Positions 1,412 to 39,775 of a DNA stretch of 64,000 nucleotides are shown piece after piece (position 1 is the first letter of the stretch; every line of letters starts with the position of its first letter). Location: NCBI RefSeq assembly GCF_011634835.1, contig NZ_SIRP01000001.1, forward strand, positions 1 through 64,000, read 5' to 3'. The notes under the pieces are model-generated. The model saw only the letters and a list, made by a program, of their open reading frames with translations. It was not told where the DNA came from and made no database searches. The DNA is from Isoptericola sp. BMS4. GTDB lineage: Bacteria > Actinomycetota > Actinomycetes > Actinomycetales > Cellulomonadaceae. Position numbers and translations under genes: made by a program.

Positions 1412-3928
1412 ATGAGCACCCCCACCCAGTCGCCCCCGTGGCCGCACGCCGAGATCGACCTCGCGATCGAGGGCATGACCTGCGCCTCCTGCGTCGCCCG
1501 CGTCGAGAAGCGGCTCAACCGCGTCGACGGCGTCACCGCCACCGTCAACCTGCCGCTGGAGAGCGCGCACGTCGAGCTCACCGGGCCCGTCGACGACGAG
1601 GCCCTGCTGGCCGCCGTCGAGGCCGCCGGCTACACCGCCCACGTCACCGGGCGTCACGAGACCGCCCCTCCCCCGGCCGCCGCGCCCGACGCCGGCCCGA
1701 CCCCTGCTGCCGCCGAGGAGCCCGCCCCGGACGTCGACGCCGGCGCGCCCGCACCGGCCGTCGATGCGCGCGGCACGGACCTGCGCCGCCGCCTGCGGGC
1801 GTCCACCGTGCTCACGGTGCCGGTCGTGGCGTTGTCGATGATCCCGGCGCTGCAGCTCCCGGGCTGGCAGTGGCTCGTCGCCGCGCTCGCGCTGCCGGTC
1901 GTCACGTGGGGCGCGTGGCCCTTCCACACGGCGGCCGCCCGGGCCGCACGCCACGGCGCGTCGACGATGGACACCCTCGTCTCCCTCGGCGTCGTCGCCG
2001 CGACCCTGTGGTCGCTGTGGGCCCTGCTGCTCGGCGGCGCCGGCGAGATCGGCATGACGATGCGCCCGTCCCTGCTCCCGTCCGCCGCGCACGGCACGCC
2101 GGAGCTGTACTTCGAGGTCGCCGCCGTCGTCACCACGTTCCTGCTCGCCGGGCGCTACGCGGAGCACCGCTCCCGCCGCCGCGCCGGCGACGCCCTGCGC
2201 TCCCTGCTGGAGCTGGGCGCCAAGGACGCGGAGCGGGTGCGGCTCGCCGCCGACGGCTCCCCCGCCGTCGGGCCCGACGGCGCCCGGCTCACCGAGCGCG
2301 TGCCCGTCGCGGAGCTGGCGGTCGGCGACGTCTTCGCCGTCCGCCCCGGCGAGAAGGTCGCCACCGACGGCGAGGTCGTCGAGGGCGCCAGCGCCGTGGA
2401 CACCTCGCTGCTCACCGGCGAGCCCGTGCCGGTGGACGTCGGCGTGGGCGACGCCGTCACCGGCGCGACCGTCAACACGTCCGGGCACCTGCTGGTGCGC
2501 GCCACCCGCGTGGGCTCCGAGACGACGCTCGCGCAGATCGGACGGCTCGTCGCCCGGGCGCAGACCGGCAAGGCCCCGGTCGCACGGCTCGCCGACCGGA
2601 TCTCGGCGGTGTTCGTGCCGATCGTGCTCGGGCTGTCCGTGCTGACGCTGGTCGGCTGGCTGCTCGTCGGCGCGGACGTCCAGCTCGCGTTCACCGCCGC
2701 CGTCGCGGTGCTGATCATCGCGTGCCCCTGCGCCCTCGGGCTGGCGACGCCGACGGCGCTGCTGGTCGGCACGGGCCGCGGCGCCCAGCTCGGCGTGCTC
2801 ATCAAGGGCCCGGAGATCCTGGAGTCCACGCGCCGCATCGACACCGTGGTGCTCGACAAGACGGGCACCGTCACGCAGGGCTGCATGCGGGTGGAGCGCG
2901 TCGTCGCCACCGAGTTGTCAGACCCTGCGCGAGGTATACGCCGCGCACAGCCTGACAACTCGCGCCAGGACGAGGTGCTGGCCTACGCCGGCACCGTCGA
3001 GGCCCTGAGCGAGCACCCGATCGCCCGCGCCATCACCGACGCCGCTACGGAGTTGTCAGGCCCCGCGCGGGACATGCACCGCGCAGGGCCTGACAACTCG
3101 ACAGGAGCGGGGGCCGACGGCGTCGCGATCGGGTCGCTGCAGGCCTTCGACTTCCGGGCCACGCCCGGCGGCGGGGTCGAGGCCGTCGTACGTCGCGCGC
3201 ACTCCGGGCTCGCACCCGACGGCGGGCTCAACGCCCGGCGGGTCCTCGTCGGACAGCCCGCGTGGCTCGACCGGGAAGGCGTCACGCTCCCCGACGACCT
3301 CGCCGCGGCGTTCGCCGAGGCGGAGTCCACCGGGGCGAGCGCCGTCGTCGTCGCCTGGGACGGCGCCGCTCGCGGCATGATCGTGCTGCGCGACCCCGTG
3401 AAGCCGACGTCCGCCCAGGCCGTGACCGAGCTGCGCGAGCTCGGGCTGCGGCCCGTGCTGCTCACCGGCGACGGCGAGGGCGCGGCCCGCGTCGCCGCCC
3501 GCGAGGTCGGCATCGCCGACGACGACGTGATCGCGCGCGTGCTGCCCGACCAGAAGGTCGACGTCGTCAGGCGCCTGCAGGACGAGGGGCACGTCGTGGC
3601 GATGGTCGGCGACGGCGTGAACGACGCCGCCGCCCTGGCCACCGCCGACCTCGGGCTGGCCATGGGCACGGGCACCGACGTCGCCATCGAGGCCGGCGAC
3701 CTCACGCTGGTGCGCGGCGACCTGCGCTCCGTCCCGACGGCGGTGCGCCTGTCCCGGGGCACGCTGCGGGTGATCAAGCAGAACCTGTTCTGGGCGTTCG
3801 CCTACAACGTCGCCGCGATCCCGCTCGCCGCCGCGGGACTGCTCAACCCGATGATCGCCGGGGCCGCCATGGCCGCGTCGTCCGTCATCGTCGTCGGCAA
3901 CTCGCTGCGTCTGCGCCGGGCGGGCTGA
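1412..3928 (+). CDS. copA: Copper-exporting P1B-type ATPase CopA
   Basis: An 838-residue P-type ATPase that exports Cu(I) across the membrane. It has an N-terminal HMA domain (GMTCASC, C24 and C27), a low-complexity Ala/Pro linker, the transmembrane CPC metal site (438-440), the phosphorylation motif DKTGT (D482), SEHP in the nucleotide-binding domain (533-536) and GDGVND near 733-738. The ATG has GGAG eight bases upstream. Oddly, two related 17-residue segments (501-517 and 547-563) are encoded by 51-bp palindromes and lie in the nucleotide-binding domain, one on each side of the SEHP helix. A further loop near residues 595-610 ([15 protein letters not shown]) is also longer than in usual CopA. 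All catalytic motifs are intact, so the enzyme is probably active. Confidence 0.93.
2911..2962. repeat. In-frame palindromic element D1 inside copA
   Basis: An inverted repeat with arms beginning CGAGTTGTCAG, a GC-rich middle and a GTATAC centre. It is read in frame as [17 protein letters not shown]. It matches element D2 at 42 of 51 positions, and seven of the nine differences are transitions. The usual CopA family has a short loop here, so it looks like an insertion that kept the frame. Confidence 0.85.
3050..3100. repeat. In-frame palindromic element D2 inside copA
   Basis: A second copy of the D element, with arms GAGTTGTCAGGCCC and GGGCCTGACAACTC around an ACATGC centre. It encodes [17 protein letters not shown] in the same orientation and reading frame as D1, 29 codons downstream. 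Its arms are better matched than those of D1, suggesting it is younger or better preserved. Confidence 0.85.
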
Positions 3929-6818: not shown

Positions 6819-6878
6819 GTTGTGGGCGCGCGTTTGGCGCTATTCCCGACGGAATAGCGCCAAACTCGCGCCCACAAC
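6819..6878. repeat. Palindromic element A, copy A1
   Basis: A 60-bp near-perfect inverted repeat with arms GTTGTGGGCGCG-N-GTTTGGCGCTATTCC and a CGAC-like centre. One mismatch is seen in the 28-bp arms. It lies between two divergent genes, so it cannot be a simple terminator here. Its right arm reaches the -35 zone of the CPBP gene. Copies A2 and A3 are at 38380 and 39716. Confidence 0.85.
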
Positions 6879-17037: not shown

Positions 17038-17141
17038 CGACGACGGTCGCGCCGCGCGCAGAGGATGCCCTCCGGCCGCGTCCGTCCACAGCCCGGCTCC
17101 GGCCGGTCCCGCGGCAGGTGGTCCGCTGGTTCGCTGCTCGC

Positions 17142-18128
17142 ATGCCTCGACCATTCGCACCTGCACCGCCGCGCCTCGTCGCCCTCTCGCTCCTGCAGGA
17201 AGGGCTCGTCTCGGCCCGCCAGTGCGAGGAGCACGGCGTGAGCAGCGCCCGGCGGGCCCGGCTCGTGGCCGCTGGCCGGTGGGCGCGGGTGACGCACGCC
17301 GTCTTCGACACCGACCCGACACCGCCCGCGCGACGCACCGGCACGGACGTGCTCGACCACCGTCGCCGCCGGCGGGTCTGGGCGGCGCTGCTCGCGTACG
17401 GCCCGGAGGCCGTCGCCGTGGGCGCGAGCGCCCTGGCCCTGCTCGGCGTCCACGGCCTGCCCGTCGACCTGACCCCCGAGGTAGCGCTGCACGGCGGGCG
17501 CTTCGGCCGGGCGCGGGACGGCGTCGTCGTGCGGCAGTACGAGGCCGGGCGGGTCCTGCGGGCCCGAGGTGCGCCCGTCATCGACCCCGAGCTCGCTCTC
17601 GCGCAGGCCGTCCCGACCTGGGCCCGACGGCAGGCAGTCACCGTCCTCGACAGCGCGCTCCAGCAGCGCATCGTGACCTGGGGCGGGCTGCACCGCGCGC
17701 ACGAGCTCGCCCGCGGCCGCCGCGGCGTGGCGCGGACCCACGACTGGTGGGGCCTGGCGCGCGAGGACGCCGAGTCCCCGCTGGAGACCTGGGCCAGGCT
17801 CGAGGCGGTCGACGCCGGCTGCCCGCCGGACCGGCTCCAGGTCGGGGTCGAGGACCGCGACGGCCGGTTCCTCGGCCGCGGCGACCTCGGCTGGTTGCTG
17901 CCGGACGGCCGCTGGTTCGTCGTCGAGGCCGACGGCGCCGGGGTCCACTCAGCACCGCAGGCGCTGTTCCACGACCGTGCCCGGCAGAACGCGATGGTGA
18001 CGGCGGGGTCGGCCGTCGTCGTCCGGGTGACCCACGGCGACCTCCGTGTCGAAGGGCGGGTCGGTGCCCAGATCGTCAGGTCGTTGGCAGCCCTCGGGTG
18101 GCGGCCCCGGCCGACGAGCACCACCTGA
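17142..18128 (+). CDS. AbiEi-like / DUF559-type protein
   Basis: A 328-residue protein. Residues 1-60 resemble the AbiEi antitoxin winged helix (LLQEGLVSARQCEEHGVSSARRARLVAAGRWARV). The C-terminal 100 residues resemble the Vsr-like DUF559 nuclease fold, with ESPLETWARL, a RGDLGWLLPDGRWFVVEADG strand pair and HDRARQNAM. The acidic residues fit a PD-(D/E)xK-type site, but a clear lysine is missing. Proteins with this layout are widespread singletons in actinobacteria. No toxin partner (AbiEii) is adjacent, so a functional toxin-antitoxin role is not supported. Its stop codon lies inside palindromic element E2, and E1 lies just before it. Confidence 0.75.
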   Translation: MPRPFAPAPPRLVALSLLQEGLVSARQCEEHGVSSARRARLVAAGRWARVTHAVFDTDPTPPARRTGTDVLDHRRRRRVWAALLAYGPEAVAVGASALALLGVHGLPVDLTPEVALHGGRFGRARDGVVVRQYEAGRVLRARGAPVIDPELALAQAVPTWARRQAVTVLDSALQQRIVTWGGLHRAHELARGRRGVARTHDWWGLAREDAESPLETWARLEAVDAGCPPDRLQVGVEDRDGRFLGRGDLGWLLPDGRWFVVEADGAGVHSAPQALFHDRARQNAMVTAGSAVVVRVTHGDLRVEGRVGAQIVRSLAALGWRPRPTSTT

Positions 18129-18170: not shown

Positions 18171-18193
18171 TCGGCGCGAGGCCCGGCGCGGAC

Positions 18194-18239
18194 GCACGAA
18201 GGCCCGCCGCTCGTCGTGACGAGCGGCGGGCCTTCGTGC
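18194..18239. terminator. Strong bidirectional hairpin between convergent genes
   Basis: A perfect 22-bp stem beginning GCACGAAGGCCCGCCGCTCGT with a two-base GT loop. It lies 36 bases beyond the hup stop on the minus strand and 66 bases past the DUF559-type stop on the plus strand, so it can serve both. Confidence 0.85.
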
Positions 18240-18275
18240 GGCTGACGCGGCGACGTGCGGCGCGTCAGCGGAGGA

Positions 18276-38379: not shown

Positions 38380-38435
38380 TGTGGGCGTGAGATCCGCAGT
38401 ATTTCCGGCGGAATACCGCAGATCTCACGCCCACA
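38380..38435. repeat. Palindromic element A, copy A2
   Basis: A 56-bp inverted repeat with arms TGTGGGCGTGAGATC-N-GC-N-GTATT and a few mismatches. The outer TGTGGGCG ends match A1 and A3, but the inner arms differ (TGAGATC instead of GAGTTTGGCG), a sub-type. It starts 13 bases after the glycosyltransferase stop. Confidence 0.78.
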
Positions 38436-38447
38436 ACAGCAGGGGTG

Positions 38448-39620
38448 TCAGCCGAGCAGCTCCTCGACGACGTCGGCGGCGCGCCGCGTGCCGCCCTCCG
38501 CGCGCGAGGCGGCCTGCAGCTCGGTGGAGCGGCGCGCGACCTCCGGGTCGGCGGTGAGCTCGAGCAGCGCCGCCCGCAGCGCCTCCGCGGTGGCGTCGTC
38601 GGTGTCGAGGCGGCGGGCGACACCGAGCTCGACGAGCCGGTCCGCGTTCATGAACTGGTCGACCGCCTGCGGGACGGCGATCATCGGGACGCCGGCGAGC
38701 AGTCCCTCGCTGCTACCGCCCATCCCCGCGTGCGTCACGAACGCGTCCGCCTGCTCGAGGATCGCGCGCTGCGGCACCCAGGAGTGCGCCTCGACGTTCG
38801 AGGGGAGCTCGCCGAGCTCCGCCAGGTCGACGTACTTCCCGATCTGCAGCACGACGTGCCAGCCGGGCAGGTCGCCGAACGCAGCCAGGCACCGGCGGTA
38901 GAACTCCGGCTGCCGGGTGTACGCCGAGCCGAGCGAGACCAGGAGCACGCGCTCCGCGCCGGCCGGCCGGGACCACTCGTCGAGGTCCGCCCGGGGGTCG
39001 AAGCACGGGCCGACGAACGTGCACCGGTCCGTGTCGACACGGTCCGCCTCCGGCTGCATCGCGCGCGGGATCATCGCCAGGACCCGCTCCGGAGCTCCCG
39101 GGAACGCGTCCATGTCGGTGGTCGTGGCCCCGCTGCCGGCCAGCCAGCGGGTGAACTTCTCGCGGTACGCGTCGGCCCCGGGCAGCTGCCACAGCGGCGC
39201 CGCCACCTCCTGGTCGTAGCCCTCCCAGGCCACGAAGGTCGGGGACAGCTGCAGCACGGGCCGGTCCTGCGACTCGCCCAGGGCCCGCGCGGAGTACCCG
39301 CCGATGTCGTACAGGTAGACGTCGGCCGGGTCGTCGTCGTAGAAGGCGCGCAGCTGCGGCAACGCCTGGATCTGGTCGTCGAGGAACGTCTCCATGGCGC
39401 CGATCGGGTCCTCGGGCCAGTCGTTGTCGGCGACCGGCAGCGTGGAGGTGACGGGGACGAGCTCGGCACCGGTGGCCTTGATCAGGTCTGTCACCTGCGG
39501 GTCGTTCGCGTACGTGACCCGGTGCCCCCGTGCGACGAGCTCGCGGACGATCTCCAGGCTGGGCAGGACGTGGCTGACGGCGGGGATGCCGACCATCGCG
39601 ACGTGGGCGGGGCGAGGCAT
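38448..39620 (-). CDS. MGT-type glycosyltransferase (GT1 family)
   Basis: A 390-residue GT-B glycosyltransferase. The N-terminal acceptor half begins MVGIPAVSHVLPSLEIVRELVARGHRV. The C-terminal half has the nucleotide-sugar site HAGMGGSSEGLLAGVPMIAVPQAVDQFMNADRL, a strong GT1/macrolide-glycosyltransferase signature. It likely adds a sugar to a small hydrophobic molecule, perhaps inactivating an antibiotic. The ATG at 39620 has GGAGTGA eight bases upstream. It stands alone, bounded by palindromic elements A2 and A3. No biosynthetic cluster is visible around it, so detoxification is more likely than production; this is inference. Confidence 0.88.
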   Translation of the reverse strand: MPRPAHVAMVGIPAVSHVLPSLEIVRELVARGHRVTYANDPQVTDLIKATGAELVPVTSTLPVADNDWPEDPIGAMETFLDDQIQALPQLRAFYDDDPADVYLYDIGGYSARALGESQDRPVLQLSPTFVAWEGYDQEVAAPLWQLPGADAYREKFTRWLAGSGATTTDMDAFPGAPERVLAMIPRAMQPEADRVDTDRCTFVGPCFDPRADLDEWSRPAGAERVLLVSLGSAYTRQPEFYRRCLAAFGDLPGWHVVLQIGKYVDLAELGELPSNVEAHSWVPQRAILEQADAFVTHAGMGGSSEGLLAGVPMIAVPQAVDQFMNADRLVELGVARRLDTDDATAEALRAALLELTADPEVARRSTELQAASRAEGGTRRAADVVEELLG

Positions 39621-39715: not shown

Positions 39716-39775
39716 GTTGTGGGCGCGAGTTTGGCGCTATTTCCTCCGAAATAGCGCCAAACTCGCGCCCACAAC
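39716..39775. repeat. Palindromic element A, copy A3
   Basis: A 60-bp inverted repeat with perfect 28-bp arms (GTTGTGGGCGCGAGTTTGGC...) and a CCTCCG-like centre. Its right arm matches that of A1 closely. It begins 18 bases after the PEP carboxylase stop and lies about 95 bases upstream of the glycosyltransferase start. Confidence 0.9.

Follow-up and report, generated by a model that had tools for sequence, protein, structure and literature searches.

A 50-bp palindromic repeat in copA of Isoptericola sp. BMS4 and its putative partner gene palN in Actinomycetota

The stretch of DNA analysed here (the window) spans 64,000 nucleotides of contig NZ_SIRP01000001.1 of Isoptericola sp. BMS4 and carries, on the forward strand at positions 1412 to 3928, the gene copA for a Cu(+) P-type ATPase of 838 amino acids, assigned from the list of open reading frames and the Pfam domains E1-E2_ATPase, Hydrolase and HMA. 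Solved structures homologous to CopA include 3rfu and 7si3. Inside copA lie two 50-bp palindromes, D1 (2912 to 2961) and D2 (3050 to 3099), both of the form GAGTTGTCAG-N30-CTGACAACTC, designated PAL. Neither shows an arm mismatch; D1 forms 20 and D2 22 of the 25 possible pairs, and they code for 17 residues each, respectively before and after the SEHP segment. The original prediction, made from the letters of the window, had described two in-frame palindromic elements of 51 bp; their presence, palindromic character, common reading frame and 17-residue contributions to CopA were all confirmed, but the length is 50 bp, the 51st position being one flanking base. Recomputing the identity of D1 and D2 gave the same 42/51 bases, or 41/50 without that base. 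Stretches with at least 20/25 palindromic pairs number eight in the whole window, and single-strand DNA folding of the two elements is far better than that of shuffled sequences (z of -5.0 for D1 and -7.3 for D2).

A mobile element, possibly from an undescribed protein-coding palindromic repeat family, had also been suggested. The mobile-element reading has stood up, as other copies exist in the genome and CopA orthologues differ in these segments. The family proved to be large, dispersed and mainly intergenic, and to be accompanied by a partner gene, palN, itself flanked by PALs and absent from the original prediction because it lies at ~3.60 Mb, outside the window.

PAL is a dispersed repeat family with a strict frame inside genes

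The 4.43-Mb genome of the strain (the home genome) contains 18 exact PAL copies and 49 with no more than three mismatches, with none in the reversed-pattern control. All 56 occurrences of GAGTTGTCAG in it are PAL ends (56/56, positions compared by eye); with no half-site outside PALs, there is no insertion sequence with PAL ends in this genome. The arms have been kept across actinobacterial orders, and the interiors are lineage-specific but self-complementary. In an ungapped alignment of 52 copies, collected under a looser rule from the window and 28 home-genome stretches chosen for holding PALs, the interior displays compensatory changes: the covariation score was 0.236 against 0.138 +/- 0.010, equalled in 0/500 shuffles, and in the true register it exceeded all slid versions. 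One of five covariation measures, that of further pair types, was not significant (58/500 shuffles).

By a degenerate pattern allowing two mismatches, PAL was found in 14/58 relatives, with 0 to 66 copies per genome in the genus. An exact-pattern scan of GTDB contigs returned, among the matches listed, title-named organisms that all belong to Actinomycetota, including Isoptericola, Krasilnikoviella, Oerskovia, Luteimicrobium, Cellulomonas, Microlunatus, Propionicimonas, Nocardioidaceae, Frankiales, Geodermatophilaceae and Actinopolymorpha.

Placement relative to genes was determined with a simple codon-model script rather than an annotation pipeline, and the calls vary with the model. Fourteen of 52 home-genome copies fall inside 11 genes, each starting on a codon boundary, the rest being intergenic or overlapping gene ends. 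The distinct copies gathered from the home genome and from further loci in several genera number 177; of these, 38 lie in genes, all of them in frame 0 (38/38), and translate as ELS...DNS or close variants. An alternative codon model trained on named loci placed 14/90 copies in genes, again all in frame 0 (14/14), two of which (L056) are not in the set of 38. On the strands of intergenic home-genome copies frame 0 is open in 72%, frame 1 in 97% and frame 2 in 1%, so that stop codons alone do not account for the preference for frame 0 there; outside the home genome frame 1 is open in only 45%, and the bias is less informative. The host proteins include an aromatic amino acid lyase, the dihydrolipoamide acyltransferase E2, a biotin carboxylase subunit, XdhC, an Fpg-type glycosylase and a molybdopterin oxidoreductase. 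Set against the Pfam ranges, several inserts are interdomain or close to termini, and a few are inside domains.

Where the neighbouring genes run in the same direction, the median distance of an intergenic copy from the upstream stop codon is 15 bp, and for 52/63 this stop is closer than the following start. With the majority of copies located between genes, usually shortly beyond a 3′ gene end, coding insertion represents the surviving minority. Doublets are spaced by 60-62 bp in 13/18 close pairs outside genes, and by 60 bp (three pairs) or 72 bp (one pair) inside genes. At four home-genome positions (1003900, 1449385, 3509355 and 3601112; L021, L027, L038 and L039) an insertion sequence or its remnant with GGCGGGTTCAAGCGGTCGTCGCAACAC ends lies between both PALs of a doublet; about 3 bp are duplicated, as judged by eye, and in three of these four split doublets the middle is unassembled. 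A single end of the GGCGGGTTCAAGCGGTCGTCGCAACAC type adjoins a PAL at 718496.

In some lineages PALs are themselves surrounded by copy-specific flanking inverted repeats (Microlunatus, n=40; other metagenome-assembled genomes, MAGs, n=45), with pairing runs as high in 0/2000 shuffles; home-genome PALs have none (n=38). This hints that hairpins serve as targets in those lineages. At L121, L120, L079, L063 and other Propionibacteriales loci, PAL is central in longer, copy-specific inverted repeats, as if inserted into existing hairpins.

The CopA sites were compared across the genus, and several close orthologues lack one or both segments. By pattern, PAL is present in CopA of genomes G000, G001, G004, G005, G006, G008 and G014; a decayed left arm is retained in G011, there is no PAL in CopA of the PAL-positive G003, and none in the nine PAL-negative genomes of the genus. 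On the CopA tree, PAL presence takes five gains or losses to explain, of which no fewer than four fall on supported branches; it is not clearly clustered there (73/500 shuffles as low). Seven CopA copies from five species were compared: six clearly have their closest matches among the remaining PALs of the genome they come from, and the seventh is nearly tied. At the same CopA site, copies of different species have only 7-15 of the 30 interior positions in common, which is no more than unrelated copies from the two genomes share. This comparison used part of the copies (14/66 for G005, 10/17 for G004, 9/20 for G014 and 7/8 for G008) and left out G001 and G006. PAL positions are also held in common, with dissimilar interiors, in LutC and, within ~3 residues, in a carboxylase. 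Shared sites with dissimilar interiors point to concerted rewriting or repeated re-insertion. In CopA of G004 (L186) the stretch between the PAL sites, the SEHP segment included, is gone and one PAL is left, likely through a PAL-by-PAL deletion in the catalytic domain.

A second, unrelated 50-bp palindrome family with GGGCGCGAGTTTGGCG arms was noted in the window at 6824-6873, 38383-38432 (nine arm differences) and 39721-39770, and at L025 7890-7939, which makes four copies in the ~357 kb examined. Two of them bracket a glycosyltransferase gene (38448-39620), and no partner gene was found.

Palindromes flank PalN, occur with it and diverge with it

Comparison of PAL neighbours identified palN, a gene with PALs on either side of it in the home genome, in a Frankiales MAG and in another actinobacterial MAG; in Microlunatus speluncae, as in a Nocardioidaceae MAG, the gene is flanked too. 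A profile built from three sequences and run against the 58 relatives scored above 200 bits at 10 loci in eight genomes, all PAL-positive, the next score being 146 bits. PalN is thus present in 8/14 PAL-positive and 0/44 PAL-negative genomes (Fisher p 1.6e-6), six PAL-positive genomes being without it. PAL-type palindromes (five or fewer arm mismatches) were found near one or both sides at 8/10 of these loci; at the other two, L239 and L240, the flanking palindromes have other arms, those of L239 keeping the TGTCAG core. PalN of G008 is without most of the nuclease-like part and PalN of G004 without the N-terminal part.

An AbiEi-like fold was recognized in the N-terminal part of PalN, and the protein is predicted to combine an AbiEi-antitoxin-like DNA-binding module with a PD-(D/E)XK-type endonuclease-like domain. 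VIA-align listed no nuclease that matched the C-terminal third strongly, and a profile search of PDB gave no credible match by sequence. NCBIfam held no match for three PalN proteins, PHROGs a single one (E 0.09), and Y1_Tnp is not among the Pfam matches. A viral origin was rejected: viral contigs contain no exact PAL, and the PalN profile gave one weak viral locus. A search with one PalN protein gave no plasmid record and one phage-like record. Two background PalN-like paralogues of the home genome (window 17103-18128; 823382-824284) have no matched flanking palindromes. The former is only distantly related to PalN (AbiEi_4, E 0.0034) and is accompanied by a strong hairpin at 18192-18241.

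At class level, matches with E <= 1e-30 were obtained in 128/394 genomes. Around many of these homologues lie 50-bp palindromes with arms that vary from locus to locus yet agree between the two sides of a given gene, such as GGTCGTGCCCCTGAG, GCTTTGGATGGG and GTCGATGTGTAAC. A matched flanking pair was present at 27/55 protein-ascertained loci, namely, by falling score among the relatives, 8/10, 2/6 and 3/14, and 14/25 in the class set, from which four edge loci were dropped. Pairing flanks across loci gave a mean of 1.9 and a maximum of 5, and CopA loci gave 1/26. In a wider set the count was 35/59 against 5.1 (maximum 10), with 1/27 for CopA and 7/221 for other called genes; one of these seven scoring control genes is PalN itself, and 4/63 loci were left out, their gene having been parsed in fragments. 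As L053, L081, L135 and L159 had been found via PALs, the unbiased count is the protein-ascertained one.

Arm identity tracks protein identity (Mantel r 0.63, 0/2000 permutations), and on the PalN tree loci of one arm type group together, with 6 changes against ~12 (0 and 1 of 500 shuffles as low); L220, tagged there as having other arms since a shifted palindrome was picked, has PALs of the TGTCAG type. The geometry at the 35 loci is regular: the upstream palindrome precedes the matched domain by a median of 85 bp, and the downstream one sits about the stop codon (median -4). The GGTCGTGCCCCTG palindrome occurs in six copies in its own genome, two of these flanking the gene, and in none of seven other genomes. 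Distant PalN homologues at L237, L238 and L240 are flanked by clean palindromes (18-23 of 25 pairs) that have arm types of their own, and probably represent further cognate families.

Explanations for PAL and PalN

We regard it as probable that D1 and D2 belong to a dispersed, non-autonomous 50-bp repeat of Actinomycetota whose cognate enzyme is the palindrome-flanked PalN, with its AbiEi-like and PD-(D/E)XK-type endonuclease-like parts. AbiEi antitoxins recognise inverted repeats in the promoter of their own gene, and PalN would bind the conserved arms through its AbiEi-like part. It could then cut or nick PAL or hairpin DNA or the target, and repair would copy PAL sequence into the break. 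Such copying would account both for new copies and for interior rewriting at old sites. Repeats would thereby spread, doublets would form and old sites would be rewritten to the current genome type, with insertions surviving where they are harmless, that is past stop codons or as an in-frame hydrophilic loop of 17 residues, as in the nucleotide-binding domain of CopA.

The alternative that survives best, although we consider it unlikely, gives PALs the role of operators, decoys or self-marks bound by a regulator or defence protein of the PalN type; the flanking copies would serve autoregulation, and the dispersed ones would be kept as such sites and not through selfish spread. The antitoxin-like N-terminal module, the own-promoter binding of such antitoxins, the palindrome upstream of the gene and the co-divergence of arms and protein would all suit a regulator. 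The downstream copy about the stop codon fits poorly, as do dozens of copies in or beside unrelated genes, in-frame protein inserts included, and a copy number that runs from 0 to 66 within one genus.

Still less likely, in our opinion, are RNA hairpins (terminators, mRNA 3′-end protection or RNase sites) with pairing kept at the RNA level, an explanation in line with the strong stems and with the position of unidirectional copies shortly past stop codons. On the transcribed strand G-T and A-C mismatches number 27 and 48 in genes and 34 and 43 in unidirectional intergenic copies (convergent copies, whose strand is undefined, were left out). With G-T not above A-C, no G-U tolerance is visible, which counts against a hairpin acting as RNA. 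Rfam returned noise only, with no match near the gathering score, and sequence-specific arms of 10 bp and in-frame coding copies would stay unexplained, so the candidate was rejected.

The general layout of dispersed palindromes, doublets and a flanked gene, whose logic is set out in the portion of PMC2817692 consulted, would also agree with a classical family of repetitive extragenic palindromes (REP, REPIN) moved by a REP-associated tyrosine transposase (RAYT, a Y1 enzyme), or with a miniature inverted-repeat transposable element (MITE) of an ordinary insertion sequence. Either is very improbable here. Y1_Tnp was found in 2/58 relatives, both PAL-negative and outside the home family, and PF01797 in 0/36 home-family genomes (own, same genus, same family), PAL-positive ones included, which led us to reject a RAYT. 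The GTAG tag is not present in the PAL consensus, the arms of which read as given above. No signal of target duplication was detected among the 177 copies, and this, with the lack of isolated arms in the home genome, speaks against a MITE. A last candidate, of negligible probability, takes D1 and D2 for old coding inserts, fixed in CopA, that look palindromic through codon bias or by chance: several orthologues share the two loop positions, but the dozens of mostly non-coding copies elsewhere, the interior covariation and the resemblance of CopA copies to PALs of their own genome rule it out.

Whether the cognate PAL-PalN relationship extends to a broad actinobacterial class of RAYT-independent palindrome-nuclease pairs, in which 50-bp palindromes with co-evolving arms would flank an AbiEi-derived DNA-binding endonuclease, and this enzyme would copy and rewrite dispersed palindromes, in-frame inserts included, by cut-and-repair gene conversion, is in our judgement evenly balanced. 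If true, it would mean a second origin of REP-like elements, and solitary AbiEi-like genes could be selfish genetic systems. In the portions of the literature surveyed, REP-like palindromes have a single class of partner enzyme, the RAYTs; if another, unrelated partner has matched arms that diverge along with it, dispersed palindromes would have arisen more than once. A PalN-type partner would then be a candidate enzyme for repeats lacking one, and in-frame peptide insertion would offer a natural experiment in protein loop evolution.

Comparison with known systems

The top-ranked results of a literature search of limited coverage contained no description of PAL or of a palindrome-AbiEi/DUF559 pairing, nor are PAL and PalN described in the consulted portions of PMC3733652, PMC2817692, PMC12306157, PMC10969869, PMC2229807 and PMC1525189.

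The likeness to Rickettsia palindromic elements, raised in the original prediction, holds for form, since both are small and inserted in frame in genes for unrelated enzymes, but not for placement, since most PAL copies are intergenic. In the parts of the reviews PMC2229807 and PMC10969869 consulted, the rickettsial elements are ~100-150 bp long and no mobilising gene is named for them; PAL is set apart by its 50 bp and its GC-rich actinobacterial hosts, as judged from those descriptions.

Another likeness is to the CGTC-tagged REPs (dRS3, RPE-4 and RPE-6), which have, according to the portion of PMC3733652 consulted, stems of 8-9 bp, loops of 4-5 bp and no associated transposase gene. Both kinds are palindromic, form doublets, have intragenic copies and CGTC/TGTC-like letters near the ends, and are without a Y1 transposase partner. 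The CGTC tag, however, lies outside a short stem, whereas in PAL pairing spans all 50 bp, TGTC falls within the stem and a partner gene is flanked. On the protein side, PalN differs from AbiEi antitoxins and Rv2827c (structures 6y8q and 1zel) in its additional, predicted C-terminal endonuclease-like domain and in the flanking palindromes.

The closest layout is that of REP/RAYT units (REPtrons), described in the sections consulted of Nunvar 2010 (PMC2817692) and Di Nocera 2013 (PMC3733652) as short multicopy palindromes near gene 3′ ends, often in doublets, with a gene flanked by cognate palindromes. On those descriptions PAL resembles them in 3′-end placement, doublets, a cognate-flanked gene, repeat-protein co-divergence, some intragenic copies and compensatory changes. 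The REPtron trait of a gene flanked by co-diverging dispersed palindromes is found in PalN, with the matched pair at about half of the protein-ascertained loci and not at all of them. The REP partner is an HUH/Y1 transposase (PF01797), whereas PalN is AbiEi-like and predicted to be endonuclease-like, and REPs have a GTAG tag that PAL, of fixed 50-bp length and found in Actinomycetota, does not have. PAL-PalN therefore has the layout of a RAYT-REP unit minus the Y1 transposase and the tag, and there is an even chance that its enzyme makes it a new kind.
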